Origin: Branchiostoma floridae
Taxonomy: Eukaryota > Chordata > Leptocardii > Amphioxiformes > Branchiostomatidae
Length of the DNA: 64,000 bases
Direction: 5' to 3'
NCBI RefSeq assembly: GCF_000003815.2
Contig: NC_049983.1
Location: 2,840,350-2,904,349, forward strand
Of the stretch, positions 1 through 53,097 are shown one piece after another. The position numbers and the translations under genes were made by a program. Numbering within the stretch: position 1 is the first letter of the stretch; the number at the start of each line of letters is the position of its first letter. A model generated the notes under the pieces. That model was not told the DNA's origin, made no database searches, and saw only the letters and a program-made list of their open reading frames with translations.

Positions 1-8
1 CAGTAGCA

Positions 9-690
9 TTGTTGCACGCTGATAACAAGTATTTTGTTTATGACTCACATGCCAGAAGTCCCATAACAGCATTGCCAGATAGCCATGGCACTTCTACTTT
101 AAGCATGCACAGTTCAAACAGCAATCTAGTTTCATTCTTGCAACAACTTAACTGGAACACAACATGCAATTTTGAGGTTGTCCCAGTAGAAGCAGAAAAT
201 GTTTTCTTATCAGTTGAACCTACTGGTATACACATTATCAATCTGACTAGCAATGTTTCTTCTATGATTGAGTCAGAAAACTGCTTTCAAGTTCAACAAC
301 AACACACATACACCTTGGTTAAACCAGAGTTTGTATCTACGAAAGAGAACCTACAACAACCAAACACAGCATTTCCATTTGCACCACATTGTAACCAAAG
401 TACTGGGAAAAACATTGTGCCATGCACCACAAGCAAACATCCAAGTGCTATGCCAGAGAACAGGAATGAAGGCCTCTTGAATCAATTAGTAATGTCACCA
501 AATGCAGCATCAAATTTAAATGATAAAAAAGTGCAAGGTCTTGCAATCCAAAGCGCAATATGCAAGGACAAACAAGAAAAACAAACCTATCAACAGAAGA
601 CAGAGAGTCTTGCAGAACAAAGAACATCATACAAAGCAAAGAAAGCAAATGAGACCTGTGAGCAGAAGAAAGAACGACAATGCACATCCG
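9..690 (+). pseudogene. Fragment of a large transposon protein (probable Helitron-associated), 5' cut by window edge
   Basis: The frame is open from the window edge. It begins with a motif of the type HADNKYFVYDSHARS, followed by DSHGTSTL and, further on, FEVVPVEAENVFL. I associate this pattern with the OTU/C76-like cysteine-protease region of large metazoan Helitron-type or PIF1-helicase transposon proteins. After a low-complexity linker comes a charged segment rich in Lys, Gln and Glu (about residues 180-220), like the basic repeats that precede the Helitron-like N domain. Past about 690 the frame continues to 851 but the composition changes abruptly, so the homologous part probably stops there. 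No helicase or Rep motifs are present. Family assignment is from pattern memory, not a search. It is a truncated mobile-element gene rather than a cellular gene. Confidence 0.45.
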
Positions 691-858
691 GGACCTCTTC
701 CCGCCTTTGGCTGTGGTCTCGCACCGGAGTTTCTTTTACGATTTTTATATCCGGCACACAGCGCACACAAGGGATACAATTCCGCCCACAAAAGTACGCC
801 GGAAAATCCAATTATACCAGTGAACAAAGGTTTCCAGCCAACTTCCCATAGATTTTAG

Positions 859-4308: not shown

Positions 4309-4381
4309 ATGTCAACCAACAAAATTGGCAACTTCATCCTTGTGTACACGTTGTTCCGGCTGCTTGTGACACATACATCAG
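4309..4381 (+). CDS. Exon 1: signal peptide
   Basis: Codes for about 24 residues beginning MSTNKIGNFILVYTLF and ending THTSG, a basic start followed by a hydrophobic core, typical of a signal peptide. The ATG has A at -3 and an in-frame stop 36 bases upstream. The donor is CAG|GTAAGT at 4381/4382 and leaves phase 1, matching the next recognisable exon. Linking it across the 4.9-kb intron is inference from phase, strand and the missing start of the downstream exon. Confidence 0.6.
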
Positions 4382-7300: not shown

Positions 7301-10300
7301 GCACATGGCTGAAAGGACGTATTAATATGTATTCTTTACCCAATAATAATAACAATTTCGGGGCTAAAATCGAGACATACTTATATACGGGTTACATTGA
7401 GAAAGGCATGCAGGGAATAGGTGGTAACGTTCGTTGTTATCATTTTTTATCATTGTCTTCTCGGCTGGCTTTCAAGGATCGTAGGACACATTTCGACGTT
7501 TATTGCTTAAAAATGAATGCATTGAAAAATGAAACACACTTTATCAGTTAGTGTACCCACTATGAAACCGAAAGAAACACAATATTACAAACAGTCGTCA
7601 CTATTTCACCAAGCTTTTACCACCTAAGAGATCACCAAAAGAATATATTTTACTAAAAGCACAAAATCCCACCATCATACAGAACGTGGAACAGTTCATT
7701 AACCACTGCATTTAAGTAAGAAGTCAAACCCGACAATAGTATCCATAGTATTACGTAGTTGATTAGACACGAGTTTTATGTATTACTCTATTTACTTCTC
7801 TCTTAGTTCATGAGACTGTATATGCAATTAGCCCTCGGGCATGATTTTACAAATGAATATTATTATTGTCTTTTCAGATGGTGCTATCAAACACGGGCAT
7901 ACATTTATCTGTTCACTTTTGCTAGTTGAAATCTGCTTATGTTCAATGGCGGCGCTCAAATAAGTTGTATTTACTTCAGGGCGCAGTCATCCCATATGTA
8001 CTTGTTTATTTGTGTTCGTTTGATAAAAAAATGTTACAACGGAAGATCCGCACAAGATCGGGTGGCGTCGTGTGTGGTGTAACTGGTAGAAATGACAGAA
8101 AAAAATAAGGCTAATAAATATCCTCAGATGTTAATGCAAACTAGAAAAAAGACAGACAAGAAAAGGCCAAATATCATTGTGACCCTGGGATAGGAGTAGA
8201 TTGTATGACCCTTTGCAATAAAATAGCAACCCAAATTTACAGTTTGATATAGGTAGTCAGGGGCATTCCTCTTCATGCCATAGGAATACGTATACATAGG
8301 AATATCATTTTCAGTTGTGTTTTAAGTTTTATTTTTGATTATCATAGATATCAGTCAAATTTCGGTGACAGTCATACAGAAATAGAATAGTTTGCAAAAC
8401 ACTGTTTTGAATGAAAAAATAATGTCCATAGAACAACATAAGTAAAATAATTCCACCAGGGTACATAATTCCGCCAACCTGAAAAGATATGTCCAATCAG
8501 GTCTCTAAAACATCGTCTTCCAGTATAAAGCACTCCTTTATATCTAAACTGTGTTTACCTGGGATACTACAATAGAGATCTCTCAAACACAATGCCTTCC
8601 ATTGTGAAGGATTTATATGTAATCAGGCGTACTGATGTAAAATGGATTGCATGCTAATCCCTTGCTTTCAGATGCTTGCAACATTTACAATTTAGGGACT
8701 AATTGCACTGATAGCAACGTTAGTTCTTTTTTAAAACTTTTTTTAGAAAGGTTGAAAAGACACATGTGCAGCCGTGCAGAAAGTTTTTATCAAGTGCATG
8801 AAATATTCGTAAGGCACATGGCTGAATGGACGCATCGACAAGCATCATTTTTGACGTGCGTAGCTATTGGCCCTCCGGTATGAGTGATGCGGAAATCGTC
8901 GTCTAGAGCCTTAGAGTTATAGTCACCTACTTGCTAAAGTGACCACCCTGAAGCAGACGCCTTATTCCTTGAAAAGCAGAAAACTTTGTCATAAAGAGGC
9001 CTACTCATAAATATGGGACATAAATGTACTTCCAATGAATTCTGATGAAACTTAAGACTCGACAATATTAGTCTCAAGATGCCACTGTTTTGTTGATCTA
9101 GCTACTATTTGCTACTAGAATATGGTAATATTTTGTACTCCTTGAATTACCATATCCTTGCCCAAACTGGCTCCATGACTGGAATTCCAAACATTCTTTT
9201 GGGCCAACATTCCTGTACAATTCCTAGAATTTTTGCTTACTGAACACAATGATTTACCATTTGGCTCGGTCCAGAGGTGTCGTCAAAATTCCATTTTGCA
9301 ATTAACGAACCGATCCTTCCTCACACAGCAATCGGGTACACCAGTCTGGGTTGCTGGGCGGACGACATCTCAGACCGCGCCATTCCCACACTCGAGGGGA
9401 CTGACTCACGCCTAGATGGACACTACTCGTCACGGGAAAACCCCATCGAGAAATGTTACCAGGTAGCACTTTCTCGTGGTTTCCCCGTGTTTGCCGTACA
9501 GAATGGCGGCTGGTGTGCTGGTTCGGCTGATGGGCTCAACACCTACTACAAGTACGGCGCATCACCAGCCTGTGCAGCCGATGGCGGAGGCGGGGATCTT
9601 GCAAATGAAGTCTACGGGATCACTGGTCAGTCTCTAGTAAGGCTTAGGTCACATTTCCAAATCAGGGCCCGGCCGTGCAGCTTTCGGAAGGGAAAAGAAT
9701 GATATAAAAGACATCAAAATACACAAAATGTCTATATAATATCAACGGACATAATTTGGGTATATTTCTCGGTATACATTTTATTTCATTTTTTTCGTCT
9801 CTTTGAATAAACATCCCGGCCGGGCTCTGGATTGGAAATGTGATATACGCCTACATGGGTGTACGGGTGGAAGTTTCAGAAGGGTGTAAATGAGTGTCTA
9901 TTCTACCATTTATGCTCACCTCAGGCTATTTGCTGCATGCTCAATTACCTTAAATCTTCATGATCTTTCATATTGTATCTTTGTTTCCATTGGCAAATTT
10001 ATTTTCACGTTCTTGGCTCTCATTACTTTCCGTACGTACCAAACACCACTTGCGTCAGAGATTACTTTTGCAATGGCCCACTACTACGTACCGTCAGATG
10101 TATGTTTGCCCATCATGTTGGCCAGTCTTAGTCCTTAAACTGCCCAAGACCCTTGCATTACATTTTAATGACAGTAGTCAACCAATTATGTGTACCTTTT
10201 GACACAGTTTCATTTTAACAATTGCTGGCAATATCATTCACAGTGAAATGGGGGTGAAGTTTTTATTAGTTGTCGTGACGTCGCCGGACGATCTNNNNNN

Positions 10301-13300
10301 NNNNNNNNNNNNNNNNNNNNNNNNNNNNNNNNNNNNNNNNNNNNNNNNNNNNNNNNNNNNNNNNNNNNNNNNNNNNNNNNNNNNNNNNNNNNNNGAAATT
10401 CGCCTTACATTCGACAGTTTCATCTCGAGGAAGACTACGACTTTCTCACCATCTACGATGGACCCAGCGATAGTGCTGAGGAGTTACAGAGGTAACGTTC
10501 TGAGCGCGCTAGCGTCGTAAAAGACTACGATAAGCACTAATAGATCCTAATTAAGATTCTGAATGTGAAAAATATTGGCATGCTGTTTTGGAAGACGATG
10601 GTAGGCAGACAGGGTGGGTTAGGCGACCCGTCTGCCTTGCCTGCACGATACATTTTAAGGTGAAGGAGGGGTGTGCACTTCCTTTCCACCCTATCGTCTA
10701 CTGGTGCACTATGCATCACACATGCAAAAATCAAAATTTTGAAATATGATCACGCCCACTTAAGGGGTTATGGATCGGGTCATTTGAGACATACTTTGTA
10801 TAAAAATCGTCGTCTGGCATGAAATAAATCACACCCCACCCAACCCAAAAAACGAATCCGCATTATATGCAAAAGGCCCAGCCATATAATGATTCAGTGA
10901 CATGCTTGGTGACGTATAACTGCTGAACGACGTGTGCTAGGACTACCAAACTTTTTGTACTTTTCCTAAAATTCAGTTGGCAACAATTGTAAACGAATAA
11001 AGTACGATGCCATTATGTTGCTACAACAAATAGACTTGATCACAACTCACTTTCCTTTCTCAGACGTCACGAAGCAAAACAATATTCAACACTACACTTG
11101 GACTCAATCGCACGGTGGCCCGGTAGGATAAGTGATACAAGGTTTCACCAGGCTAGTTCTAACCCTTCCACACAGGCATCCTCTGCCTGGTACCCACTCC
11201 TAGTGTGGGGCCATTTTAAACACATTTCTTGTCTGTTTTGTTTTAGCATAAAAAAATCTTAATATGTGCCTCATGGGGTGGGTACGGAACCACATTTGCT
11301 TACTGGACCGGTCCAGATCCGAACCTGAAAAAAATTCGGTAGACCTGATGTTGGACCTATTGGAAAATGAACAGATTATATAATTGGGCATTCACGTGTT
11401 TGGGGGCTTACCGGACGAGGAAAATAACAAGAGCGAACGTAGAGTACCACGTTTTACAGTCAATAGTACAGAGGCAGGCAGCATTGTGGGATTTTAAACG
11501 CCAGTGGGAGTCGAATAGTCCACAAAACATATTTCTTTGTTGCGAAATAGACCATTGTTTTGAGTATCGTCCAGTCACAAGTTCTCACATACTGAATGAG
11601 GTCCAGGTTCAGGTTCAAACCTGGACCTGATCCTCTTGACCTGAACCGGACCTGGACCGAAATTTGCTGTACAGTTACCAATCCCCAGTGCCTTACGTTC
11701 ACAGTGTATTCGTTGCCTTCTAGGTTAACAGGTGACTTGTCAGTCAGCCCGATCACCAGCACATCTAACACGCTGTTCCTGAGGTTTACATCTGACGTCC
11801 TTTTCGCGGAAGAAGGATTCAAGTTGTTCTATTCAAGTCAAGTCTTGAATACAAGTCAAGTCTTGAATGAAACATCTTACAGTAAGCATGTTTACCTTTG
11901 CTAGAAGGTTATGTGACTCAGAACATTTTAGTTTGCTATATTGGTGGTATGGCTGTGGATGTATTTGAGTATGGTGTAAACATAATAACTCAAGAAACTG
12001 TGAATGGATGTATTTGGTAGGTGGGTATGTGTCTAGAAGACGTATGTGAAGTTTGAGAATTGGCGTCCTGGCGGCTTCCTACGGCTTTGCAACTTGTATT
12101 TTTGTGTGTTTCTATGTGGTAAGCTCGAGATGCCGTGGACGGATCTTTATGCTATTTGTTAGGTAGGTAGGTAGAAGTCTACAAGACGAAGATGTACTTT
12201 GAAAATGGGCCACTTACCAGCTCCCAAGTCACTACAGCAAGAGTTTGAGGTCATTTTTTTTCTGGAAAAAATGTTACAGCAGCAGTACCAACGTCCGAAT
12301 CAGGTATTCGAATTTTCAACCGCTCCGCAGTCAGGGTGGGCAAATGATGTTTGAATTGTTTTATGGAAGCCTGTGTGATAAAACTTCGAAGCCTGTGTGA
12401 TACGGTGTTTTATCACCAGATCCGAAACACCTGTATCGACAGTCATTGCGATACAAGCATGGCACAAAAGATCTAATCACGGTTTTTGAATGTAATCTTT
12501 TCTTACATAAAACAATGGGATGGATGAAGAAATATTACGAAGAAAGATGTCAATATATTGTAACCGTTGATTTATGAAGCACCAATATGATATTTACCAA
12601 CCAGAAATTCACAACCTCGCGATGAAGACGAGTGATGCTGTGTGGTCTGGTACCGCTGATTCATTAAGAGTGGAAATCTTCTCTGATGTTTGTAACGACA
12701 CCTGCGTCAACACGACCGTGCATGCAACCCTGGAGGACGGGTAGGTACAATACACCTATTTCACGCGGCAGCCATGATAGAACAAAACCAAGGCCAATGT
12801 GGCAAACAAAAGACTATCCATCATGATTAACAGTTCAACCAACGATAGCATGGTAATCAGGAAATCAACCAATAAGGGATTGGCTGCATGTTCATCAAAT
12901 ATTTGCACTATCATTCTAATTTGAGCTATAGGATCACTCTACCCTAAATTGCTACCTATCGGTGCATAACACTAGTCATGATATCAATTATTTAATCCTA
13001 AATACTTACTCCTACACTACCATACTTCCCGGTGTCCGTGACAAACTAATACAAATATAGCAACTAAAATAAACAACTACATGTACAATAGGTTAACAGA
13101 AAACTTTAGATGGAGCACAAAATTAGAGTGGGAGTGGTTAGAGGTCGACACACCAATTTTACAACTTAATATTTATGTGGCTCCACACATTTAGTTTTTC
13201 CTTAGATATTTGCATATTCCACCCGGAAATCAGAAAGAATAGAAGCTGTAAACATGTACTCCACGTTTCAAGCTATTTGATTGGCTTAAAGTCTCACTTT

Positions 13301-19300: not shown

Positions 19301-22300
19301 CGTGGTGTGAAGAGGTGCTCAGTATAGCTGATGACCAAACAAGGGACCTGCTACCTCCATGTCACATGTTTCCAGCACCACAAAGGAGTTGTTGGAACCC
19401 CGAACCGGCTAGGAAAGGCAAGGAAGGTGAGAACGAGAACGACAGTGATCCACAAGGACCTACGCAAGGATCCTCCGCAGAGAAATCCAATGGCGCCAAC
19501 GAACCGCCTCTTGTCTGTACTCTGCTATCTCAATCGTCACCATTAGTTCCTGTGGGCGTAGCCAGAAACAAGCTGTCAGCCAATAAGAGAATAGGCCTTT
19601 CAGTTTTCAAAAGGAATCTCACATATAAGGGTTAACTCATTAATATTTATAAGCAGGGCGGTTAGCAACTGATGGTGACACTTTTAATAACCGAAAGACA
19701 TATTCTCTGATTGGCTGATAACTGGTTTGTGGCGACGCCCACAGGAACTGATGGTGACGGCTGGGATAGCAGAGTACAGAAATGAATCGGTTTGCTGGCG
19801 CTGTTGGATGCCTCTGATGGGAGAATGGCAAGGACAACTCTCTTCATCTACGCGATTCCGTCTGCTATGCAAACCATTTCGTTGCTAACGCAAATTTCTC
19901 CGTGGGTTACGCACAGGATAATTTCTGAGCGCACTGAGCGCTATCGAACCGCAGTGTAGGTGATGTGCTTCTAGAAATTAGAAGTTTGACATCCATTCGA
20001 TATGTACGTAAAGCAGATTTAACTGGTCTCGTGTGTTTGTACAAACCGCTGCTGATAAGTGACAATTGTTCTTCCTTAGTTTGCTACCATGGTATCGGCA
20101 CTAACTACCGCGGAACATTGGATAAGACTACATCCGGCGCAACTTGTCTTCAGTGGTCAGCTGCACAATCTGGTTTCTACATCAGGGAGTACTCCTGGGC
20201 TAACCTGGACAAGAACTACTGCCGTAACCCTACCGGTCTCCAGCGGCCATTTTGTTTGACTGCAGATGGTAGCCTTGAGGAATGTGACGTCATACCTTGT
20301 GGTGAGTTACGCTGCATACTTGCCTTTGGAGTACTAAAATGTTGTGAAATGTTTCAGCTCAATTTCACTGAAAAGATGATTCTTATGGGAAAGTTATGTT
20401 AAGTTTCTTGTTGTTTTCTATTACACAGCTACAGATGTTTGCATCACCATTTAGGCAGCTTTTAGTTAATCAGGTCACAGTGGTACGTGATGCTGTCCTT
20501 AACCTAAGTTTTATCCCCTTTCCTGTCTATTGATGGGTTCATGATATACCGATAGAGGTACCAGCTGAAAGCCACCAAAATGATGGTGAAAACATTTGTC
20601 CTTGTGAAAGGAAGCATTTACAATGTAATGACCTGAAATTTGGTCTGCCCCCAACATATATGCGCACATGGATTCATGATCACTTTTGGCATACATTACA
20701 ACAAAATGCTTAATTTGGCCCTTTTTTTGCCAGTGAATGACTTTTGGCTATTATATCCTGGTTTAACAGTCAAATAACCTGAAATTTCATAGAGGAGTGC
20801 ACTAGATATCTATTTAAATGACCCATGTATAATATTTGGTATGAACCACTTTAAAATGATTTAGTTCGTTGCACCGGCTTAGAGGCGAGAGAAGCCGTTC
20901 GTTCAGCGGTTTGGTTTGCATGGATGCATGGCTGCATGCATGGATCGGTCAATTTAACCAAACTCTTCTTATAGCCCTTCTATACGCACGATTACGCAAT
21001 CAGCTAGCGTGCCCGAGCGGTCTACGCGCTGGGTGGATATAGCGATTTGCTTTTGCAGCCGTGGATCGTGGGTTTGAACCCCACTCTCAGAGGGTTAAGA
21101 CACTTTGAAGACCCCCAGCAAAGTGGGCGTTGGCTCCCCTAGCAACCACCTTTGACCCCAAGTTTCCCAGATTTCCCCCATTGTTCGATAATAGCCCCCT
21201 CCCCGCCTAGTGTGAAAACAACCCGGGAGGGGTGCCACCTGGCCAGGTGAGACATTACCTGGCACCCTGTAGGGTAACTGTCTGGGAAAACAAGCAGGGT
21301 GTGTATTGGGTGTAGTCTTTTTAGTGTGTTATAGATAGTCTGAATGCCACTGTTTGAATTATGCTGTCATCATGAGTACAAATACTTTGAAAATGGATAC
21401 AGTACAGCTGATTTAATACAGTGCCCAGCTTCAGTCGTTCGTATCCCACCAAATGAATTATACTCTGGGACCAGTTTTGACAAGATCTGATTTCGACTGA
21501 CTTAAACAAGAAACTGTTCACAAATAAATGCCCCAATCCCCCCCCCCCCCTCTCAGTCTTACCAGGGCTAAGTAACCCCTTTTTTCCAGAGATTGAGTTC
21601 ACTGTTGTAGGAACATGATATGTATACTTTCAGCTAATGTTCCAGGTCAGATCCAACAGAAGAAGAATTTGTTTCAAATTGAAACCTTTAGAACTTTTCA
21701 ATAAAGTATTACTTCTGTTGTTATCCATAAGACTAATTACAAGATTCCCCGGTGCTACTGTTTCTCTACATTCTTTTAATCTACAATAACTTGATCAAGA
21801 AAACATGCTTAGTCTTTCGATTTCTAAAGTCAAGAAAATACCAAACAACTTGACCATGTTTCCCCCAAAGATTCAGGGAGGTTGATTCTTTCAACCTCAT
21901 TGCTTTTAAGCGAGTAATGTTACAGGAAATATCATATGTATCATGTTTATAGCCAGGCCAGTATGCTCAAGAATTATTGTTAGGTTAGGATAGAATTGTA
22001 CATTGCTGAAATGAGAAGGACATTCAGAATTACTGTAATCTGAAGCTATGTAGTTGAATGATTAACAAATCAGACAAATAGATGGTAGAATATGCACCAG
22101 TAATCTATTTCAATTTTGCTTTTGAATGAAATGTGTATTTACAAATCTATGTTAGTCAAATTTGTTCCCTATTTTATACTGAACCCTTCTCCCACATTCT
22201 TATACATATGTAATTTCAATTGTCCTTAGAACACCTTAAGCCCTGCACAATATGAGCAATCTTTGACAACTATGATAATACATACAAAACATTTGTAGGG

Positions 22301-25300
22301 AGTGAGGAATAAATGCTAGACAGTCACAGTCATTTGATTAAGACCAGATGTGGGTTATCCCCAGGGTCAGTTTCTTCTCAGCCAAGTGCATTGACAGTTA
22401 ATTGGATAGACAGGTGAAATTGTTTCAATCCAATTTTCTTGGAATTCTGCTATATAATTCTGTGTGTAATACTTAAATGCTTGAACGTTTGTTTATCATT
22501 GATCAACAGAACCCAAGCTGGCTGTCTGGCTTGGCAGGTAAAGGTGTGAAAGCTGTGAACTTTCCCATTGTTCTCCTCAGGTAGACTTGTACCCTGCCGT
22601 CAGGTACTAAGTCAACGAATTAATTGGTCATATTGTCACTATCCAAACAGAGAGATCACATTTCATGCTTGGAATGGCCAAAAGTTGCAATTTTGTAATC
22701 TTATTTTTTTGTTAAAGGCACAACCATATGCAATGTTCTTATTTGTCACAAAAGACATTCCGGGTAAGTAGACAAGTTGTACTTTAATGTTCAGGTGGTC
22801 CCATGGTTGTGCATATTACCACTTCCCTGTCAGGCTACCATGAATATTTCACATATGCCATTTTTTTTAAATATTTTGAACATATTAAAGAATATCTCTG
22901 TTATAATCATACTAGTGGGGCTGGGACCACCTGATCATTATAGAGTGCTGCTTGCTGAAAACATACATACCACATTTGTGTAAAAAAATATGTTCTGGGG
23001 TGTGGCGTCGAGGGCCTATAAGGTATAAAATCTAGCTGTGCTTATGATGTTCATATCTTAATATCAGTGAGTCTTTTATGAAATCCATGTGGTCTGAAAG
23101 TATGCTATGGGTTTGTGGCTCCATTTCCTGTTGAAAATTCTGAAAAATACTAGCCCAGTAACTTTCTATAGCAGATCAAAGTTGGTGGATCAGTTAATTA
23201 GGCAGAAGGGCAGAAAGTGTCTTAACTCACTGAGCTTGTAACAATTTTTTTTCTTTTTAGACAAATCTCATGTAATTTTTTTGCTTTAAATAAAAGACAG
23301 ACCGATTCAGTAATTCGATGTTTAAAAACTCTTTTTTCAAGTGATTTTGTTTAACATCCAGGCTTTTTTCAGAAGCTTTCTTGTTTGTCATTTTCTAATG
23401 GCCAGGGCCGTTGTTCCCACTTTACAGGTGCAGGCCTGTCTATGATGTAATTGAATACGCAGCAAATTGACCTACTTCAATCAATATCCTGAGGAGGATT
23501 TGGCAGCCAATCAGCGAGCATGGTTTTATCTGGAAGAGTCCATTCATGCACGGGGACGCTATTTTTTCTAAATTCAAGTTTGGACTAGGTTACTTATACA
23601 AAAGGCTATTTTTTCATGGGAATTATTTCTGGACTTGATTATTTTTCTAATTCTATATGGGATATGCGGGAAGAGTCCATTATTGCACGGAGGGGGACAA
23701 TTCTTTAGAATTCATTTTTGGACTTTGGTGATTATGTCAAAGTCCTTTTTAGTGGAAGTAATTTTGGACTGCTCCACTTAACATGGAAGAGTCAATTCTT
23801 ATATGTAGGCTTTTTTGTAGATTTAGTTTTGGGCGGTGATGATTTAAAATTCAATTCTTTAGCGGAAGTGTTTTGGGACTGGTCTATTTTACCATTTTAC
23901 ATGGAGTGCACTGGAAGAATCCATTCTTGCAGGGGGATTTCTTATTATCCTTTTTTGCCCATAAGTGTGATTAGTATTTGGAACAGGCTTTTGTTGCATG
24001 GGTAGGGAGATGGCTGAAAAATGCTGCATATATGCTCAAGCACATGTCGACCTTTCTAGTGATATAGTAAAATATCAAAACATCTCTGTATCAATATCTA
24101 TTTCTGCCAGTCTATCTTTTTTATTGTAATTTGCATACCTACATACCCTCAACAGTTATTTGCAAACCTATCATCATTAGTAACGTTACATCTTATACTA
24201 ACGGTTAGCCGCATGTTAGCCTCCTGGATAGGAACAGTAATCTTGCTGATCACATGCTACTTTAAAACCAGATGCTGCTGGCTGCTGGGACAGAGGTCCT
24301 CCCGTCAACGGCAAGAGAAGCCCGAGCAAGACGTTCTACCCTGTAGGAGATAGAGTCACGTACACGTGCAACGATGGGTACATACTGGAGTATGGCTACC
24401 CTAGGGAAGTCAGGTGCCTCAAAGGAAACACAACTACACCGGAGAATGAAGGGGGCATCTGGGAACATGAAAAACCCGTGTGTCTAGGTGACTACCGTCT
24501 GTCAGGCATCGCAAAGATAATCCATTCTCCTACACAGAGACGTTCACCGGCGCCAGCAAACGGCCTCTTGTCTGAACTCTGCTATCTCAACAGTCACCAT
24601 TAGTTCCTGACCGCCCTGCTCATGAATATTAATGTACTTACCCTTGTATATGCGAGATTCCTTTTGAAAACTGAATGACCTCTGAACGGCTGACAACGGG
24701 CTTGTGACCCCGCCCACAGGAACTGATGGTGACTGTTAAGATAGCAGAGTACAGACAAGAGGCGGTTTAATGGCGCCGTTGGATGTCTCTCCGTCGGAGA
24801 ATGAGACAATTAGATAATTCTGAACTCGGCACAAGTTTGGAATATCAACTTTGATTCATCTTATTCCGTTCTTTTTGCATCAATTTTGATAAGTTATATA
24901 TCAATAGAAGGCGTGTGTGATTTCCTTTCCTATGATATCCTATTTATTGTGATTGCAAATTCATGAAACAAACAACAAACAAGCTTACGTGACGGGATCA
25001 CAGAAGTAAAGAGTCGAAATTGCCTAACTGAAGTCAAACAATCTATTCGGTTTATTTTCTTCCGTCCGTTTTCTACAAGTGAAGTGAGATAACATCCTTA
25101 ATGTACTTGTAACTAGAAACACGTGACGTTTAAATGCACTCGTCTCATCGTCAATAAAGTCAAAGTCATAGATATGCCTAACATACAGAGAAAAACACTT
25201 GCTACGGTTACATACAGAAGGATGGAAACTGTTTCTGTAACACATATGTTACGCAGTTAAATCAAAATAGCAGCGTAGAAATCATTTATCTATAAAAGTA

Positions 25301-28300
25301 TACAATTTGAAATACCAATGCACAATATTTGACCATCTGTTTTTGGCACGCTCTCTACACCCTGAATAGTAAACTACAAACAAAGACTGCAGGAAGAGCT
25401 GTTTCTGCTGTACAGTGCAACCCTGGCACCGGAGAATGTCACCATCAACTTCACTGGATTTGTGGAGCAAATCGTCTCTTTGGTAAGTACTAGGGTCATC
25501 GTCTGAGGTTTCCTTCTGCATTCATATATCATTTCCATTTTTGAAAAAAAAAACATAAGAAGAGGGCTCCGTTCCGAGCTACCGAATGGTCTATGTTGAC
25601 ATTATTTACCAAAAAATTCCCCAGTTCATGACTAGTGGTCATAGTTTGGGCACATGTTTAAGTTATTTCATGTTTTCAGATATCTCGCAGTTGTGTAAAA
25701 CTATAGAAAATATTCATGATGCGAAATATGGTATCTTTTTATCATTTTAGATAGTGGTAACGGTATTCTCCCCCCATGTGTCAATATCTAAAACTATTTG
25801 TTGAGATAGGAAGCCACTACATAACACATAGTTGTGTCCAATACATGGAAGTATACCTTGGCGAAAAAATAGAATTGTTGCAAGTTTTTGCAGATATTCA
25901 AAATTGAAATGAGTACTGTTGCTCGAGAAAATTGGTATCCAGCAATTTTGAGCCAAAACAAAGATACAGTCACTGCCAGAAAGCTTTCAAGATATCTAGT
26001 CAATAATTCAAGTTGTATTATCTTAGCATAAAAGTTCATCTGTGTTCACTTGGTAAATGACATTATGGATACACTAAACTTTACCTAACCAACACCGATA
26101 CCAAAAAGATTGAGACTTACCCAAATTTTAAGCCGACTCCGTCAGCCTTGTTCACTGAATGGACCCATCTGCTGTAGCTTCCGTACGTTTTATTTTCAGC
26201 TGAATTATCCTTATTCCAACCGTAGTAGTACCTTAGAATGGACTCAAAAGGTGGTATCTCACTGGCCTTTAGGCACCAGTGTGGCACTGCGGGATTCGAT
26301 AGACTAATCAACAAATTTCATGGATAAAGGACGAATTTGCTTACGTTGTGTGTATTTTGTTGTCGTCCAAGTCATACTTTTACGTATTACACAATATAAA
26401 AATTATTTTAAAAAATCGGAGAAAATAACACAACAGTGCCACAGTGTAAGAACTCCGCAGTGCCGCACCGGTGCCGCAAGTGCAGCGAGATACCACTTTA
26501 AGTAAGCAAACAATCTCAGCGCATGTTCTCAACTTTATTTCAGGACGAGAAGACGGAACAGCTGGTCGCTTCTGTTATCATAGAATTTGTAAGTTGATAA
26601 TTTTATTAAGTCTGCAAAATTTTTTATGCCAATTCAAATAAATAAATCTTTCTTGAATTTCGTATCTTTAAATGTTTCAAAAACGTTAACTGTTCAAAAC
26701 ATATTTTACAATGGTTTCAATGTTCCCCGAATTTCCTCTAATGCTAGACATGGCAGGATGGTCGACTGAAATGGATCCCAAAGTACTACAATGGCATAGA
26801 GAGCTTCAGCGTTCCAGGCGGGAGCATTTGGACTCCAACATTGACTCTTAAGAGAAAGTAGGTGGTAATCTTTTAAAACCGACTGTATAAATTATGAGTT
26901 AATGAGTCCCTTCAGTGCCAAAACAACTCCTTTCTAGCGCACGTCGTTCTTTATAAGGCCTTCACACTGAAACAGAATTAGCAGAAATCAAGCAGAACGA
27001 ATTTGCAAAATTCGTGCCACATTCGGGGCCATTCGGGTGGGACTTCCGAATTGACCTTATATCCCCTTCACACGACAAGGAATGAGCCAAAATGCCGTCA
27101 GAATGAAAATTCTTTTCTATTCCTGGAAATTCGTAGTGTATTCTAGAAATTCTTACTGCCTTCCAGATATTCTTTTATTTAATGGCCACATTCCGACATG
27201 ATTCGAAGTGGCTTACCGTTTCGTTTCTCTGTCGTATGAGATAAGAATGTTTCGAATAATGTTGGAATGCCGTAGAATTCGATCAGACTGCATTTAGAAT
27301 ATTAATTAGAATCCACTTCGACTGCCATTTGATATTTCTCCACTTCGAATGCACCTTGACAGTTTTAAACATGTCAAAAACGTTCAGGCCAGCCAAAAGA
27401 ACGGGCACAAATAGCTGGACTGCAGTAAGAATTTCTGAAACACACTACGAGTTGCCAGGAATTGCCAGAAATAGAAAATAATTTTTATTCCGACGGCATT
27501 TCGGCTCATTCTTGCTCTCGTGTGAAGGGGGCTTTAGATGGAAACATACAAGACCCCATAATACAGACAGTTATAAAGACTTTGGAAAATGAGGTGAAAA
27601 GGCAATAGTACTTAGCACAACTGCATATAGTACATATTCTTTTTTTTATAAACAGAGATACGAGCGTATATGAAAAACTATAGATATGAATAAGTCAACA
27701 TGCTGGGTCAAGCGTGCCATTTACACTATCGGTTCTACGGTATAAACATTATTTGACATATATTGCCTACTTGTACACAGTAAGTATTATTGCCAGCTGT
27801 ACTTGAATGTATCTATCGAATGGGAAGTAGCAACGTGAGCAAGTGGAAAGACATGTGAACAGATTTGTGCGTTTATCATTATATCGTCAAAGATTCAAAA
27901 TAAAGTGACATTTATCTTCAATCTCATTTTGCAGAAAAGACAAAACCTCAGGTCACGGGAAATCTTATCATATCTTCCGGCTTCTGTAGGACACAGTCCT
28001 ATTGTTGGTGTAGAGAGAATTCAGAAATAAAATGTTCTTTAGATTTTACAGTGCCGAATCTGGCCAACATGACCTTGGAAACAACCTGCCAGTCCGATTC
28101 ATCAGCGACGGCCGGGTAGAATGGACTGTGGAAACCCTGACACCACCGTGTGTGATGCTGACCCCTTCTACTTTCCGGCAGACACTATGGAATGCCACGT
28201 CTGTTTTGCTTCTGCCATAGCAACGGAGCAAACAATTCGTAAGATTTTGAAAATATATCAATTTCAGCTTCTACTTCGTCCTCGGACGGCCCATCTCTAC

Positions 28301-30813
28301 TGAAACAAGAGTTCGGAGACCTCATATCTCCATGAAATAGTCTCATTATGCAAATGTTTCCACATTTACATAATCTATGCCTGATTATCTACACCTTTAA
28401 GCAACTTTAAGCAACTTGCACCGGTCACAATGTTGATTTTCCAATCATTTACCACACAGAAAAATTAAAGAAATTTTACATTGATTGTGCAAATTAGGGA
28501 TGTATTTGCATAATTGGTATCTGTTTATGTTCCACCAGCCACAAACTATAGACATATATTACAGGTATTTGAGTCCTATATTGGAAAACACTACAAATAT
28601 AGATTTCCCTAGGCAATTTAGGTCCAAGTCTGCATACTTCATGATGTACATCTCTGTCTAAGCATATCAAATATCATCTAAATTTTTAGTCTGTATTCAA
28701 TGACTCGAAGTGAGTGTCTATTCCACTTAGAATGCCAAGGGGGACGCTCTACCACAGGCAAAGAAAACGGCCCATGTGACTCTTTATCTGCTTCACGAAC
28801 GGAAGGAGAATGGTACCGAATGGATCAGATCTTCGCCAAAAACAACAGAGAAGCGTGCTTTGCTTTACAACTGTCGAGGATCCCGCTGTTCCACATCGCC
28901 ACGACTGTTGGGCCCTGCGTCATACTGGTGGTGCTGATGATCATCACCTTCATCATGCCCATGGACAAGGGGGACCGGATCTCCTTCGGAGTCACCATAC
29001 AACTGTCTATGGTCGTGTCTCTTGTATTCGTCACCGAAGTCCTCCCTGTCAAGGGCGCGCTGCCATTTTTCGGTGAGTACATACAGGGATCGAAATAGTT
29101 TTTCTGCATACCTTCACAGGAAATGTTGCCATTTTTCGGTGCGTACAGACAGGGCTCGAAATACTTTGTCCTAAATACCTACACAGAAAATGATGGCATT
29201 TTTCTGTTCATGCTGGGCTCGAAATACTTTTTTCCTACATACCTACACAGAAAATTATAGCATTTTTCTGTTCATACTGGGCTCGAAATACTTTTTTTCC
29301 TACATACCTACACAGGAAATAACCTGCACCAGACACATATTGCCCGCACCACTCAGAATTTAGGAAGCATTGATCATACTAAAATGTATTCAGGACCCAC
29401 TGCTATTATTTCTTTTTATGTTTCATAGGTGGTAACAGTACAATGGGGCCAGTAAAAGTCCAGATTTTGAAACATGTGAACTTTATATCTAAACCATGCA
29501 CCAGTGCAGGTAGGCATCAGGAAGACCTGCAGAGCTTTGATTTTACCTGCACTAACCTGCATACGCAGGTGGTATTTTGAGCCCTGACATAGGAAGAATT
29601 ATATTAGATAGTTTTATCGCCTTTGAAATCAATTTTTTACCCTCTGTAAGCGTAGAGAGCTCTTATCTTACAATGGTAACTGTTATTTCTTACAATTACT
29701 TACAGCAACGCTGATCATCGTGTGCATGGGCTTGATGGGTGTCTTCTTGTTTTTCACCATCGCCATCATTATCATTCACGACAAGCAGGGGAGTCTGTCT
29801 CCGGCGAAAAAGACGTTCTTTCTCCGCTACATGTCTAGGTAAGTTAGCCTGGGTACCATCCGGGTAGTAGCTTGCTCCTGTGTTTGTTCCTGCTACCAAT
29901 CAGCGAGCGCACTCGTCCAAAATTTGGACGGTCAAGTATCCCAGACGGAACAGCAATGAGGTTTCTAGTTACTCCCCAAGCACATAGATCAGATAGAAAA
30001 CAAGTGAGCTCTCATTCCATTTTTCTTCTATCCAACAAATGGTGGTGCTAAGGTCGCTATACTCTATATTGACATGATAGAACTGTTTATGGGCAGCAGA
30101 CAGCATTCTCCTACGCAGAGACATCCAACGGCGCCAGCAAACCGCCTTTTCTCTGCACTCTGCTATCCCAACCGTCACTGACCGCCCTGCTTATGAATAG
30201 TATTCAGCTTACCCTTATACATGCCAGATCCCTTTTGAAATGCTTATTCTCTGATAGGCTGACAGCTGGTTTGTGGCCACGTCCACATGTACAGGAACTG
30301 ATGGTGATGGTTGAGATAGCAGAGTACAGACAAGAGGCGATTTGCTGGCGCCGTTGGATGTCTCTGCATAGGAGAATGGTAGACAGCGGCGTTCGCGTCA
30401 TTTTGTCCCCTTACCTTTGCTGTTTATCAAGGATGCTGCTGTTGGGAGACCTCAGTCACCTCACAGAGAGGGAGTCGAAGGAGACTGGCCCTGTGAAGCA
30501 GGACATCTTCGAGCTGACCAACGATGCATTCAACCCGGATGACGTGACAGCAATCGACGGGGAAGGCTTCGCTCAAATAGAGTTCGGTAATGACAGCAGG
30601 AAGCACCAATCCTCTGGTCTGGAGTCCAACATGTTGTCTTGCCTCTCTAAGCTAATGTCCAGTGTGGATGAGCTGACCAAAGCGCTAAATCATGAGGAGG
30701 AGGAAGTGACCGACTACACGCTGCTGGCCGATGTCCTCGACAGGCTCTGTCTTGTCTTGTACATCGTTAGCATCGCGGCAGCCATTCCTATGACCATGTA
30801 TTTGGGCAAATAA
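4309..30813 (+). CDS. Chimeric Cys-loop ligand-gated ion channel with a long multidomain extracellular region (23 exons assembled)
   Basis: Exons read from splice sites and domain homology: 4309-4381, 9329-9625, (gap)-10491, 11724-11881, 12605-12740, 14582-14678, 14793-14913, 15337-15472, 16373-16469, 16730-16847, 16976-17386, 18094-18210, 18749-19013, 19275-19426, 20080-20301, 24272-24487, 25370-25482, 26544-26588, 26748-26857, 28043-28238, 28731-29072, 29706-29838, 30432-30813. Visible coding is about 4.0 kb, or roughly 1,340 codons, plus what is hidden in the gap. Order: signal peptide, WSC-like, CUB, PLAT-like x2, C-type lectin, LDLa, frizzled CRD, kringle, sushi, then a full nAChR-like channel. 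Junction phases agree throughout; module borders are all phase 1. Inferred product: a plasma-membrane, probably cation-selective pentameric channel whose subunits carry a large adhesive or lectin-like ectodomain. Two one-base frameshifts (near 10420 and 28137) break the frame as assembled. A split into two genes is possible but no second signal peptide or stop is visible before the channel. Confidence 0.8.
5013..6668 (+). repeat. Tandem unit A, LINE-3'-end-bearing, in intron 1
   Basis: First of three head-to-tail copies (A 5013-6668, B 6669-8166, C 8167-8836). Each starts near CCAAATATCATTGTGACCCT. At 5895-6200 a frame contains a Cys/His cluster, with ETHFISQCTHYETER, like the C-terminal CCHC region of APE-type non-LTR retrotransposons; it ends about 150 bases before AATAAACATTATTATTG (near 6339), a retroposon-like 3' end. 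Each unit also holds a phrase like AATTCCACAAGGGTACAT, related to the TIR of the MITE at 39543-39742. Confidence 0.65.
6669..8166 (+). repeat. Tandem unit B, LINE-3'-end-bearing
   Basis: Second copy, closely similar to unit A and very similar to unit C over the shared part. The Cys/His coding piece (7327-7551) is interrupted by a TAG after ETHFIS, where unit A reads on. About 150 bp shorter than A because the stretch after the ACCCAATAATAATAAC region is missing. Confidence 0.65.
8167..8836 (+). repeat. Tandem unit C, truncated
   Basis: Third copy. It aligns with unit B from CCAAATATCATTGTGACC through the GTGCATGAAATATTC/GGCACATGGCTGAA region, then stops before the LINE-derived coding part. 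Confidence 0.6.
9329..9625 (+). CDS. Exon 2: WSC-like cysteine-rich extracellular domain
   Basis: A single exon of 297 bp, phase 1 to phase 1, with acceptor CACACAG|CA and donor ACTG|GTCAGT. It encodes about 99 residues: YTSLGCWADD, then ENPIEKCYQVALSRGF, GGWCAG and a tail with ACAADGGGGDLANEVY. The spacing of Cys and aromatic residues resembles WSC domains (putative carbohydrate-binding, found in polycystin-1-like proteins and Kremen), but the usual CYCG is replaced by GGWCAG, so I call it WSC-like. The phase-1 symmetric exon makes it a shuffling-competent module. Confidence 0.7.
10295..10394. other. Assembly gap (100 N)
   Basis: Exactly 100 N. It hides the start of the CUB domain. Immediately before it, TTTTATTAG| could be an acceptor (exon start about 10270) giving VVVTSPDDL in the right phase; this cannot be confirmed. 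Confidence 0.95.
10395..10491 (+). CDS. Exon 3 (partial): first half of CUB domain, frameshifted
   Basis: Before position 10420 one frame reads EIRLTFDSF; after it another frame reads LEEDYDFLTIYDGPSDSAEE. Together these give the classic CUB core (F-x-LE-x-x-YD-x-L-x-IYDG). A single base is missing at about 10420-10421, between TTC and ATCTCGAG. The donor is CAGAG|GTAACG, phase 2, which fits the next exon exactly. The nearby N gap makes a consensus error plausible. Confidence 0.7.
10585..10700 (+). repeat. Small structured dispersed repeat, copy 2
   Basis: Contains GGCAGACAGGGTGGG...CGACCCGTCTGCC and AAGGTGAAGGAGGGGTG...CTTTCCACCC, as at 3500-3660. It stands alone here without the larger element. 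Confidence 0.6.
11277..11690. repeat. GGTCCAGG-rich dispersed element, copy 1
   Basis: Begins near GGGTACGGAACCACATTTG and contains many GGTCCAG, ACCTGGACC and GGTTCAGG words in both orientations. The right half matches 52925-53073 (phrases CCAGTGGGAGTCG and TTGTTTTGAGTATC). A similar GGTACAGG/ACCTGTACC cluster is at 63800-63895. It ends about 30 bases before the CUB exon acceptor. Confidence 0.5.
11724..11881 (+). CDS. Exon 4: second half of CUB domain
   Basis: Acceptor CCTTCTAG|G, phase 2 in, phase 1 out (ACA|GTAAGC). Encodes RLTGDLSVSPITSTSNTLF followed by LRFTSDVLFAEEGFKLFYSS, the C-terminal CUB strands (S-N-x-L-x-L-x-F-x-SD ... GF). It ends with a small tandem repeat encoding SQVLNTSQVLN (an 18-bp unit AAGTCAAGTCTTGAATAC), a recent slippage expansion in the linker. 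Confidence 0.8.
12605..14913 (+). CDS. Exons 5-7: PLAT-like domain 1
   Basis: Three exons: 12605-12740 (136 bp, phase 1 to 2), 14582-14678 (97 bp, 2 to 0) and 14793-14913 (121 bp, 0 to 1). The first encodes KTSDAVWSGTADSLRVEIFS; the second FSAPDFGDPTMLRI and GDDYIQLDW; the third IIVSNAYNGQDYRFRC. This matches the PLAT/LH2 beta-sandwich pattern (I-x-T ... W-x-L-D-W-I-x-V ... G-x-x-Y-x-F-x-C). PLAT domains mediate lipid or protein contacts at membranes in polycystins and lipoxygenases. The domain is repeated next door with the same exon layout. Confidence 0.7.
13226..13525. repeat. Tandem duplication, about 145-bp unit x2
   Basis: Both halves share GAAGCTGTAAACATGTACTC, TTTGATTGG and CAACGCACAGAACACAA-type phrases: unit 1 about 13226-13370, unit 2 about 13371-13525. 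No coding potential seen. Confidence 0.65.
13725..13793 (+). repeat. tRNA-like sequence (Thr-like), probably SINE or tRNA pseudogene
   Basis: An A-box-like TAGCTCAGTGGT, a central TGGTAAACCA (anticodon GGT in the Thr-type loop) and a B box GGGATCGAATCC are present at tRNA spacing. I cannot build a closed acceptor stem, so a functional tRNA is unlikely. Confidence 0.4.
14043..14544 (-). pseudogene. Penelope-like element remnant with GIY-YIG endonuclease
   Basis: Antisense within the intron between PLAT exons 5 and 6. From high to low coordinates it reads PYLRGTKENLQ, then SKTDGVYKVPYKSYDNVYFG and KTGRTFNTRLGEHRKEAQN in one frame. After a frameshift near 14220 another frame reads TDHINRNNCVIDF, VIDREENRRTRWIKE and AVMNRNQGD. 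This is the GIY-YIG domain (GVY ... YFGKTGR ... R) found at the C-terminus of Penelope-like retroelements. A stop and at least one frameshift make it dead. The reverse transcriptase is missing, so it is a truncated copy. Confidence 0.75.
15337..16847 (+). CDS. Exons 8-10: PLAT-like domain 2
   Basis: Three exons: 15337-15472 (136 bp), 16373-16469 (97 bp) and 16730-16847 (118 bp), with the same phases as domain 1. They encode KTSAAAASGSNDSLTMEIFS, then FTAFDFGNPTRLRL and GDDELLIDW, then IIVQNNYSGQYYRFTC. The identical exon lengths (136 and 97) and phases show that the whole three-exon block was duplicated in tandem. The protein identity is moderate, so the duplication is not recent. Confidence 0.7.
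16976..17386 (+). CDS. Exon 11: C-type lectin-like domain
   Basis: A single exon of 411 bp, phase 1 to 1. It encodes CPLGYTSYNDSCFKVF, a WIGLTDENREGEWMWEDG stretch, YDEPKNDNGGKDCVQY and CSFANTAFICQLDKG. These are the hallmarks of a long-form CTLD (WIGL; six Cys with C-terminal FICQ). The calcium and sugar motif normally EPN or QPD reads EPK, and the usual WND reads WNA, so classical calcium-dependent sugar binding is probably lost or altered. Confidence 0.9.
18094..18210 (+). CDS. Exon 12: LDL receptor class A domain
   Basis: A 117-bp exon, phase 1 to 1. It has six Cys with FRCGLGYQCIPSWKRCDG and ADCSDRTDEEGC, the standard calcium-cage motif (W..CDG..DC.D..DE..C). Calcium-binding acidic residues are intact. 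Confidence 0.93.
18749..19426 (+). CDS. Exons 13-14: frizzled-type cysteine-rich domain
   Basis: Two exons, 18749-19013 (phase 1 to 2) and 19275-19426 (2 to 1). The first carries LPNQLGQTTFEEIQNSSV and LQEFLSYVILPHCN; the second LLPCRSWCEEV, PPCHMFP and RSCWNPEP. These match the FZ CRD (PN-x-LG ... PCRSxCE ... C-x-x-FP). Some of the ten canonical Cys are displaced. In Frizzled, ROR and MuSK this fold binds lipidated Wnt. Here a kringle follows it, as in ROR and MuSK-type receptors. Confidence 0.85.
19461..19828. mobile_element. Foldback MITE (hAT-like), copy 1
   Basis: Long imperfect inverted arms: left TCCAATGGCGCCAACGAACC, right the complement around GGTTTGCTGGCGCTGTTGGA. It contains CTCTGCTATCTCAA and its complement. 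Candidate 8-bp target duplications are CAAGGACC (19453-19460) and CAAGGACA (19829-19836). It sits in the intron between the FZ and kringle exons. Confidence 0.75.
20080..20301 (+). CDS. Exon 15: kringle domain
   Basis: A 222-bp exon, phase 1 to 1 (TTCCTTAG| and TGTG|GTGAGT). It encodes VCYHGIGTNYRGTLDKTTSG, CLQWSA, LDKNYCRNP and a final ECDVIPC. All six Cys and the N-Y-C-R-N-P signature are present. The usual PWCYT is replaced by PFCLT, so lysine-type ligand binding may differ. Confidence 0.92.
21003..21300 (+). repeat. tRNA-derived SINE
   Basis: Starts with tRNA-like sequence: GTGCCCGAGCGGTCTACGCG (A-box region) and GTGGGTTTGAACCCCACT (B box and T arm). A body follows with CACTTTGAAGACCCCCAGC. 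It lies in the intron between kringle and sushi exons. Confidence 0.55.
22791..22934. mobile_element. Short MITE with 13-bp perfect TIRs
   Basis: TCAGGTGGTCCCA at the left and TGGGACCACCTGA at the right enclose 144 bp of AT-rich sequence without coding potential. Confidence 0.7.
23460..24060 (+). repeat. Degenerate tandem repeat with GGAAGAGTCCATT
   Basis: The phrase GGAAGAGTCCATT or a near variant recurs at about 23533, 23669, 23785 and 23911 (spacing 115-135). Short related sequence with the CGACCTTTCTAG-like ending occurs at 52265-52375. Confidence 0.55.
24272..24487 (+). CDS. Exon 16: sushi (CCP) domain
   Basis: A 216-bp exon, phase 1 to 1. It encodes AAGCWDRGPPVNGKR, VGDRVTYTCNDGYIL, VRCLKG and WEHEKPVC. 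Four Cys and the Y-x-C-x-x-GY and W ... PxC motifs define a CCP module. It exits with a lone G, which completes codon GTA of the first channel exon at 25370. Confidence 0.9.
24523..24804. mobile_element. Foldback MITE (hAT-like), copy 2
   Basis: Starts CATTCTCCTACACAGAGACG and ends GTCTCTCCGTCGGAGAATG, with long inverted arms. Same family as 19461-19828 and 30104-30379. It begins 35 bp after the sushi exon donor. Confidence 0.78.
25370..26857 (+). CDS. Exons 17-19: channel ligand-binding domain, N-terminal part
   Basis: 25370-25482 (113 bp, phase 1 to 0) encodes VNYKQRLQEELFLLYSA and ends FVEQIVSL, the N-terminal helix and first strands of a Cys-loop receptor. 26544-26588 is exactly 45 bp, phase 0 to 0, encoding DEKTEQLVASVIIEF. 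26748-26857 is exactly 110 bp, phase 0 to 2, encoding TWQDGRLKWIPKYYNGIESF and IWTPTLTL (W-x-D-x-x-L-x-W-x-P-x-x-Y ... IW-x-P). The 45- and 110-bp exons match the conserved exons 3 and 4 of nicotinic receptor genes. Confidence 0.85.
27063..27530. mobile_element. MITE with about 100-bp TIRs in channel intron
   Basis: Left arm starts CCCCTTCACACGACAAGGAA and continues with GAGCCAAAATGCCGTCAGAAT; the right arm is its imperfect complement ending CTCGTGTGAAGGGG. The middle holds more ATTCGAAGTGG-type short inverted words. No coding frame. Confidence 0.75.
28043..28238 (+). CDS. Exon 20: channel beta strands and Cys-loop, frameshifted
   Basis: Acceptor GTTCTTTAG|A, phase 2 in. It reads SGQHDLGNNLPVRFISDGRV then EWTVET in one frame; from about 28137 the adjacent frame reads TTVCDADPFYFPADTMECHV. 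The Cys-loop is canonical: 13 residues between the two Cys, with FPAD in place of FPFD. The exon is 196 bp, whereas 197 would restore both the frame and the phase-1 exit needed by the next exon, so one base is missing near GAAACCCTGAC (28131-28141). Restoring it also gives the usual spacing of ten from Trp to Cys. Confidence 0.8.
28731..29072 (+). CDS. Exon 21: loop C region, TM1 and TM2 of channel
   Basis: 342 bp, phase 1 to 1. Contains EGEWYRMDQ (GEW motif before loop C), REACFALQLSRIPLFHI, TM1 with the conserved GPCVI proline, linker MDKGDRISF and pore helix TM2 reading GVTIQLSMVVSLVFVTEVLP. Acidic D at -1', L at 9' and E at 20' resemble cation channels; the Pro-Ala-Arg of anion channels is absent. 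Loop C is short and lacks the vicinal Cys pair of nAChR alpha subunits, so ligand identity cannot be assumed. Confidence 0.88.
29085..29586. mobile_element. MITE with AGGGCTCGAAATAC / GTATTTTGAGCCCT ends, with tandemly repeated left end
   Basis: Right end GTATTTTGAGCCCTGA at about 29571-29586. The left end, GGGCTCGAAATAC, is repeated about four times at 62-68 bp spacing between 29085 and 29300, each with CATTTTTC and CTACACAG words. Internal CCTGCAC and GAAGCATTGATCAT are shared with the element at 62324-62688. Confidence 0.6.
29706..29838 (+). CDS. Exon 22: TM3 and start of intracellular loop
   Basis: 133 bp, phase 1 to 2 (CTTACAG| and TCTAG|GTAAGT). Encodes ATLIIVCMGLMGVFLFFTIA followed by IIIIHDKQGS and KKTFFLRYMSR, a hydrophobic TM3 then a basic segment entering the M3-M4 loop. 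Confidence 0.85.
30104..30379. mobile_element. Foldback MITE (hAT-like), copy 3
   Basis: Starts CATTCTCCTACGCAGAGACA and ends CTCTGCATAGGAGAATG, with flanks GCAGACAG and GTAGACAG (8 bp, one mismatch) as likely target duplication. It lies only about 50 bp upstream of the final exon acceptor. Confidence 0.8.
30432..30813 (+). CDS. Exon 23: M3-M4 intracellular loop, TM4 and stop
   Basis: Acceptor TTTATCAAG|G, phase 2 in. Encodes a loop of about 100 residues rich in acidic and polar residues (LTERESKETGPVKQD, NHEEEEVTDY), then ADVLDRLCLVLYIVSIAAAI and PMTMYLGK before TAA at 30811-30813. V-x-DR-x-x-L before a hydrophobic helix is the usual Cys-loop receptor TM4. An AATAAA (30809-30814) overlaps the stop codon; it is too early to be the working poly(A) signal. 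Confidence 0.87.
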
Positions 30814-41054: not shown

Positions 41055-41288
41055 TCCCATATGGTCTAGTGGTTAGGATTTGGCGTTCTCACAGTCAAGG
41101 CCCGGGTTCGTTTCCCGGTGTAGGAACCAATGCAAGATGGCTCCTGGGATTTGACCCCGCACCGAACCTCGAGCAGCCAGATAACAAACCCAACATGCTA
41201 ACTGCTACGCCAAAAGGGCCAGACCCTTTGGGATGGTCAGTTTGGCCGGCGCTTGGCCCCCTCTGTTACATATCTAGCAATCTGTAAT
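41055..41288 (+). repeat. tRNA-Glu-derived SINE
   Basis: 41055-41126 closely resembles tRNA-Glu: TCCCATATGGTCTAGTGGTT, anticodon CTC in TTCTCAC, and GGCCCGGGTTCG. One acceptor-stem and one anticodon-stem mismatch are present. CCA follows the discriminator at 41127-41129 as if copied from a mature tRNA, then a body of about 160 bp ends in ATCTGTAATAGG. A retroposed SINE is more likely than a working tRNA gene. Confidence 0.6.
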
Positions 41289-53073: not shown

Positions 53074-53097
53074 CAAGCATTCTCTTCTCTTACAAGG

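Follow-up and report, generated by a model that had tools for sequence, protein, structure and literature searches.

Predicted Cys-loop channel genes with extracellular module trains in the lancelet Branchiostoma floridae

Closest described systems

Cys-loop receptors are known mainly for small diffusible transmitters and possess a bare ligand-binding domain (LBD). In the ROR and MuSK kinases, which are linked to nicotinic receptor clustering, an Fz-like domain is followed by a kringle. The chemotactile receptors of octopus are described as expanded nicotinic acetylcholine receptor (nAChR) derivatives activated by hydrophobic molecules and not by acetylcholine (PMC11526382). Large expansions have also been described for molluscan nAChRs, with dynamin and GAIN among the domains added to some genes (PMC6896357); kringle, sushi, CUB, LDLa, and CLECT are absent from the main text of that paper. 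The account of lancelet proteomes in PMC4967905 describes novel domain combinations and also false fusions, and includes the B. belcheri protein 269420_PRF0, from a lancelet ortholog pair, as a novel architecture containing Neur_chan_memb; its authors caution that novel architectures may stem from prediction errors. A search of the open-licence PMC literature found no description of a kringle-bearing Cys-loop channel, and kringle, Neur_chan, ion channel, and neurotransmitter are not mentioned in PMC6071037, PMC4284660, or PMC12373286.

This study analyzed a stretch of 64,000 nucleotides from B. floridae (contig NC_049983.1, positions 2,840,350 to 2,904,349, forward strand), hereafter the window. 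An initial annotation had read the region from 4309 to 30813 as one gene in which a train of extracellular modules runs into a Cys-loop ion channel.

Exon map and module identities of the window gene

The window gene begins with an ATG at 4309 and ends with a TAA stop codon at 30811-30813. Its exons, and the evidence for each, are as follows.

4309..4381, plus strand: exon 1, signal peptide MSTNKIGNFILVYTLFRLLVTHTS, phase-1 donor (strong donor and hydrophobic core in the signal-peptide scan)
9329..9625, plus strand: WSC-like module (Pfam WSC 0.00065, under the cut-off)
10208..10491, 5' boundary uncertain, plus strand: CUB, N-terminal part (Pfam CUB jointly with the next exon)
11732..11881, start at 11724 or 11732, plus strand: CUB, C-terminal part (Pfam CUB 0.0026 alone, under the cut-off)
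12605..12740, plus strand: PLAT-like repeat A, exon 1 (repeat alignment, splice phases)
14582..14678, plus strand: PLAT-like repeat A, exon 2 (repeat alignment, splice phases)
14793..14913, plus strand: PLAT-like repeat A, exon 3 (repeat alignment, splice phases; PLAT identity unsupported)
15337..15472, plus strand: PLAT-like repeat B, exon 1 (repeat alignment, splice phases)
16373..16469, plus strand: PLAT-like repeat B, exon 2 (repeat alignment, splice phases)
16730..16847, plus strand: PLAT-like repeat B, exon 3 (repeat alignment, splice phases)
16976..17386, plus strand: C-type lectin domain, CTLD (Pfam Lectin_C 1.3e-17)
18094..18210, plus strand: LDL receptor class A module, LDLa (Pfam 5.7e-10)
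18749..19013, plus strand: Fz-like cysteine-rich domain, exon 1 (Pfam Fz via relatives, not the window copy)
19275..19426, plus strand: Fz-like cysteine-rich domain, exon 2 (paralog comparison)
20080..20301, plus strand: kringle (Pfam 7.9e-18)
24272..24487, plus strand: sushi/CCP module, phase-1 donor (Pfam 7.6e-6)
25370..25482, plus strand: LBD exon 1 (LBD1), phase-1 acceptor (splice phases, paralogs)
26544..26588, plus strand: LBD exon 2 (paralogs, splice phases)
26748..26857, plus strand: LBD exon 3 (paralogs, splice phases)
28052..28238, plus strand: LBD exon 4 with the Cys-loop, one base too short for the flanking phases (paralogs)
28731..29072, plus strand: end of the LBD with TM1 and TM2 (Pfam Neur_chan_memb 2.1e-8)
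29706..29838, plus strand: TM3 exon (paralogs, splice phases)
30432..30813, plus strand: cytoplasmic loop, TM4, and stop codon (paralogs, splice phases)

The SP-G/GTAAG layout of exon 1 is the same in the window gene and in paralog C14, and an alternative start candidate in the signal-peptide scan (3457-3550) has a weaker donor than that of exon 1. The phase continuity on which the initial annotation had relied was found from 12605 to 26857 (AG/GT borders, consistent phases, 785 residues, and no stops) and from 28731 to 30813, where the frame is open as far as the stop, but not in the Cys-loop exon between them, which comprises 187 bases, one fewer than the phases on both sides need. A frameshift in the TM1-TM2 exon was considered and rejected; this exon has two plausible frames, and comparison with the paralogs revealed that the frame entering TM1 codes from the exon start.

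The CTLD, kringle, LDLa, and sushi exons exceeded the curated Pfam cut-offs with the E values listed above, as did the TM1-TM2 exon for Neur_chan_memb. The CUB module was confirmed (Pfam CUB E = 6.9e-12) when its two exons were stitched together, with X for the N gap and the frame carried over the one-base break; the N-terminal exon contains this gap at 10295-10394 and the apparent break near 10430. The WSC reading was borne out in part: the exon has counterparts 71-73% identical at two of ten paralog loci, but its Pfam E value, 0.002, or 0.00065 after trimming, is under the cut-off in both cases. The proposed frizzled cysteine-rich domain likewise found its support in relatives, with Pfam Fz matching eight of nine aligned members at E <= 1 (best 8.6e-8); the exception was the window copy, whose Fz-like exons had no Pfam Fz match. 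Among the PDB profile matches of the Fz-like domain, 12 of the 14 were to Frizzled-7/2 and were weak (E 0.09-0.95). No EPN/WND sugar motif is obvious in the window CTLD. The window LBD exons were absent among the matches listed for the Pfam LBD family and were recognized through the paralogs; 13 residues lie between the Cys-loop cysteines in both the window and the paralog exons.

The initial annotation had also described two PLAT-like modules. Repeats A and B constitute a real duplicated unit, with 53% mutual identity and three exons each, but their identity as PLAT was rejected: neither repeat had a Pfam match at E <= 1, and none of the seven PDB matches (E <= 10) was a PLAT chain. The observation as a whole therefore held for its core (the ATG, the stop, and the Pfam-supported CTLD, LDLa, kringle, sushi, and TM1-TM2) and not for PLAT. 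Exons 73-85% identical to those of repeat B were also observed at G000:C1:24530833-24531364 on the minus strand, and contig C1 has no family TM1-TM2 exon among the matches listed.

The window contains several other features outside this gene.

3-848, plus strand: 282-residue frame that enters across the window edge; judged by eye, it may belong to a mobile element protein
35502-36500 and 42673-48678, minus strand: open frames resembling a LINE-type retroelement, in which motifs of an endonuclease and a reverse transcriptase were recognized by eye
41055-41126, plus strand: tRNA gene (Rfam)
53071-54786, plus strand: open frame of 572 residues; by eye, leucine-rich repeats and a stretch resembling a signal peptide lie close to its start
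54420-55376: long minisatellite-like repetitive stretch with several frames open on both strands

Family size, the sushi-LBD1 junction, and selection

The genome (513 Mb, 431 contigs) was searched with the window membrane region, kringle, and Fz-like domain, each separately. The results revealed at least 42 strong TM1-TM2 matches (E <= 1.8e-29, 66-96% identical, window included) and at least 23 weaker matches. A same-strand kringle was located no more than 30 kb upstream of 40 of the 42 strong matches and of 20 of the 23 weaker ones, a denominator in which two ordinary C13 channel genes (11568861 and 11616763) were retained; in 38 of the strong matches, the kringle was within 10 kb, and the distances were mostly 2 to 10 kb. 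An Fz-like exon was upstream of 41 of the 42 strong matches. In the opposite direction, a TM1-TM2 match was downstream of 48 of the 49 Fz-like matches compared, from 87 listed, and a family TM match was downstream of 64 of the 150 kringle matches listed and of 49 of the best 50. As a control, a kringle within 30 kb upstream was found in 3 of the 150 matches listed for the Pfam LBD family (a picked subset of 45 had given 0). The exceptions were the LBD of a family member (C19:1374612) and two C230 LBDs situated approximately 15 kb past a family kringle, with a family TM match between.

The 60 kringle-linked matches were distributed over contigs C1-C19 (53 matches) and the small contigs C221, C230, and C256 (seven matches), and some near-identical copies may be haplotype duplicates (the C256 and C8 matches score alike). 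As judged from these comparisons, the window gene belongs to a family of about sixty related chimeric channel-subunit gene copies. The initial annotation had overlooked two points: the train forms the variable front end of this family of approximately sixty copies, and the channel is of the nicotinic type.

Several incomplete or isolated relatives were also observed. The kringles at C2:17515841 and C2:9608819 have an LBD 2 to 4 kb downstream and no TM1-TM2 exon among the matches listed. A close relative at G000:C5:4741512-4750850 (plus strand) has PLAT-like, Fz-like, kringle (90% identical), and LBD1 exons, with no TM exon among the matches listed. Two additional copies of the TM4 exon, approximately 75% identical to that of the window, lie about 0.45 Mb away at G000:C5:3323847-3326728 on the minus strand.

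Paralog C14 could be spliced fully from the sequence, yielding 14 exons, 13 of 13 introns with GT-AG borders, and 924 residues without a stop. Its order is signal peptide, F5/8C, LDLa, Fz-like, kringle, sushi, LBD, and membrane region, and the LDLa, kringle, sushi, LBD (Neur_chan_LBD, E = 1.1e-28), and membrane region (Neur_chan_memb, E = 1.1e-19) of the protein exceeded the Pfam cut-offs. The membrane match covers residues 690-912; thus, the four-helix membrane domain is present. In the full protein, the F5/8C module fell just short of its cut-off (26.7 bits; cut-off 28.2 bits), and its exon alone passed the cut-off. Pfam Fz was not reported in the full protein at E <= 0.01, and the Fz piece alone reached 0.0006, under the cut-off.

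We read out ten paralog loci of 20 kb each for module order. The order Fz1-Fz2-kringle-sushi-LBD-TM was observed on one strand in all ten, with single small LBD exons undetected in three loci and TM4 in one, and the distant member L050 keeps the order kringle-sushi-LBD-TM1-TM2. At the point where the modules meet the channel, the donor of the sushi exon is in phase 1, and an acceptor of the same phase precedes LBD1 at a constant position in nine of nine loci, window included; these nine were taken from eleven loci, leaving out C16_2.04 and C10_5.94, where the LBD1 exon was not located. The sushi-LBD1 intron measures 124 bases in C14, 237 in C10, and 882 in the window, with a maximum of 2275. 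The acceptor search across loci listed phase-1-compatible sites only; when acceptors of all phases were listed for C14, three phase-0 AGs with poorer pyrimidine tracts were also present, and the phase-1 acceptor is preferred there because the same position recurs in all nine loci. We also scanned this intron for signal-peptide-like exons, with a loosened threshold (a stricter setting missed even exon 1), and found none in the nine loci by the scan criteria. This agrees with the earlier claim that no second signal peptide precedes the channel; the absence is weak evidence alone because approximately 1.3 such exons would be expected by chance (background 1.2 per 10 kb).

These data bear on whether a gene for a secreted modular protein and an adjoining channel gene have been wrongly merged and were duplicated together. 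False fusions arising from gene prediction are documented in lancelets (PMC4967905), and an upstream kringle alone is no proof of fusion because the two ordinary C230 LBDs likewise have one 15 kb upstream. Nevertheless, introns of only 124 and 237 bases in two paralogs leave little between sushi and LBD1, the phases fit in all nine loci, none of the nine has an intervening signal-peptide-like exon (the weak point just mentioned), and C14 is one 924-aa open frame with its sole signal peptide at the start. We consider a merger of two genes highly improbable. The initial reading that the module train and the Cys-loop channel form a single gene is strongly supported by the order conserved in ten of ten loci, the phase-1 junction, and the complete paralog.

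The front modules differ among the ten paralog loci: WSC occurs in two, LDLa in six, the CTLD in four with a partial fifth, an F5/8C-type exon in four, and a second galactose-binding-like type in two, with one example of each of the last two types Pfam-tested. At least 9 of 65 family matches, window included, have a linked WSC, which is a lower bound because 51 of the 150 listed matches were used, some of them chosen for nearness to family loci. Across the loci compared, the core (Fz-like, kringle, sushi, and channel) is constant and the front modules vary, with same-transcript fronts established in C14 only.

Median dN/dS among 9 to 11 members was 0.29 and 0.20 for the Fz exons, 0.28 for the kringle, 0.25 for the sushi exon, and 0.13 to 0.31 for the channel exons; individual pairs reached values above 1 in three short exons. 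The estimates indicate that purifying selection acts on both halves, modules and channel. Some paralogs look damaged, for example in the Fz exon of C17_15.94. As a separate observation, the median synonymous divergence of the TM1-TM2 exons (window 28795-29072 and paralogs) was 0.43 versus 0.59-1.06 in nine other exons, for which gene conversion or additional constraint is a possible reason.

In the assembly, the window copy has a broken Cys-loop exon, through either assembly error or decay. Among the matches listed, this exon is read through in 41 of 41 other copies; two of those matches contain stops, which in one of the two cases (C4) lie outside the exon proper. That all other listed copies read through the site of the one-base deficit, together with the second apparent break in the CUB exon, would suit a decaying pseudogene within an otherwise functional family. 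However, the CUB break adjoins an N gap, as is typical of assembly errors, the frame is open and the phases agree in all remaining exons between 12605 and the stop, and the window-versus-paralog dN/dS medians are 0.10-0.28 across ten exons. Decay of the window copy is accordingly a reading we hold to be possible but doubtful.

Channel type, putative mechanism, and comparison with known systems

The top PDB matches of the channel part were the nicotinic subunits Torpedo beta and alpha-7, and the alpha-7 match begins at residue 3 of the solved chain. When the C16 paralog was aligned to alpha-7, D was found for E before TM2 (GDR opposite GEK), and the mid-TM2 leucine and the outer glutamate were conserved. 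The acidic residue before TM2 is a determinant of cation selectivity; its retention, with that of the leucine and the glutamate, points to a cation pore, and the protein is probably a cation channel. Opposite the aromatics of loops D, A, and B, the C16 paralog has V, K, and T, and the window copy, placed by eye in the same register, has I, K, and A; in the same alignment, the C16 paralog also lacks the double cysteine of loop C. These aromatics and the double cysteine are acetylcholine-site residues. Because the residues of the acetylcholine pocket are missing and the key pore residues are kept, gating or modulation is probably by something other than acetylcholine. The family therefore represents nicotinic-type Cys-loop channels that probably lack a classical acetylcholine site and are probably not acetylcholine-gated.

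The best explanation, which we favor with moderate confidence, is that of a contact receptor carrying interchangeable recognition modules on a constant stalk and a nicotinic-type channel. Five subunits would together form a cell-surface cation channel from which the stalks and recognition modules project outward. The front modules would bind glycan-, lipid-, or matrix-bearing surfaces, such as those of microbes, food particles, or other cells, and swapping them (WSC, CUB, C-type lectin, F5/8C, and LDLa) would set specificity. The constant Fz-like-kringle-sushi stalk would then transmit a signal to the channel LBD or position it there. A gating role of the modules is putative, and the proposal in the initial annotation that contacts with glycans, lipids, or Wnt are coupled to ion flux is a guess.

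The same architecture would also suit modules that act as anchors and not as sensors, with the stalk placing at given contacts a channel whose gating still depends on a small diffusible ligand. This arrangement resembles that of extracellular modules that cluster receptors at synapses, and the succession of Fz-like domain and kringle is the ROR/MuSK order. By contrast, the aligned paralog does not retain the residues of the nicotinic pocket, and the differences in front modules among paralog loci suit recognition at least equally. Anchoring is, in our judgment, the main alternative to the contact receptor that we favor, though a tentative one.

A bolder extension of the contact receptor, and a rather speculative one, is that a basal chordate possesses a repertoire of approximately sixty lectin- or adhesion-gated channels that turn surface contact with microbes, food, or self into current. 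If true, this would be a receptor class intermediate between innate immune lectins and chemosensory channels. Approximately sixty module-headed copies with core exons under purifying selection would broaden what Cys-loop channels sense, and the family would offer a testable chordate case in which exon shuffling turned a neurotransmitter-type receptor into a possible surface-recognition receptor.

Compared with the nicotinic subunits Torpedo beta and alpha-7, the lancelet family shares the LBD, the 13-residue Cys-loop, the membrane region, and key pore residues; it differs in that at least four extracellular modules precede the LBD and in not conserving the acetylcholine-site aromatics and the loop C double cysteine. 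The ROR and MuSK kinases share with it the Fz-like domain followed by a kringle, but they are kinases, whereas sushi, LBD, and channel follow the kringle in the lancelet family. The initial annotation had likened the module set to that of polycystin-1-like proteins. The long ectodomain of polycystin-1 contains WSC, CTLD, and LDLa, as does that of the window gene; the effector of the window gene is a Cys-loop channel, with a membrane region matching Neur_chan_memb, and PLAT is unconfirmed. Because the PLAT identity fails, the polycystin comparison is looser than originally stated.

The chemotactile receptors of octopus and squid are, like the lancelet genes, lineage-expanded nAChR derivatives, with acetylcholine insensitivity reported for the former and predicted for the latter (PMC11526382). 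This likeness is by description only, and the account in that source mentions no added extracellular modules (PMC11526382). The molluscan nAChRs, as described in PMC6896357, resemble the lancelet family in their big expansion and in the extra domains of some genes. Within lancelets, B. belcheri 269420_PRF0 may be a member of the same family, and one member would thus already have been listed (PMC4967905). If this protein does belong here, the paralogs would supply genome-internal evidence against a gene-prediction artefact of the kind cautioned against in that paper (PMC4967905).
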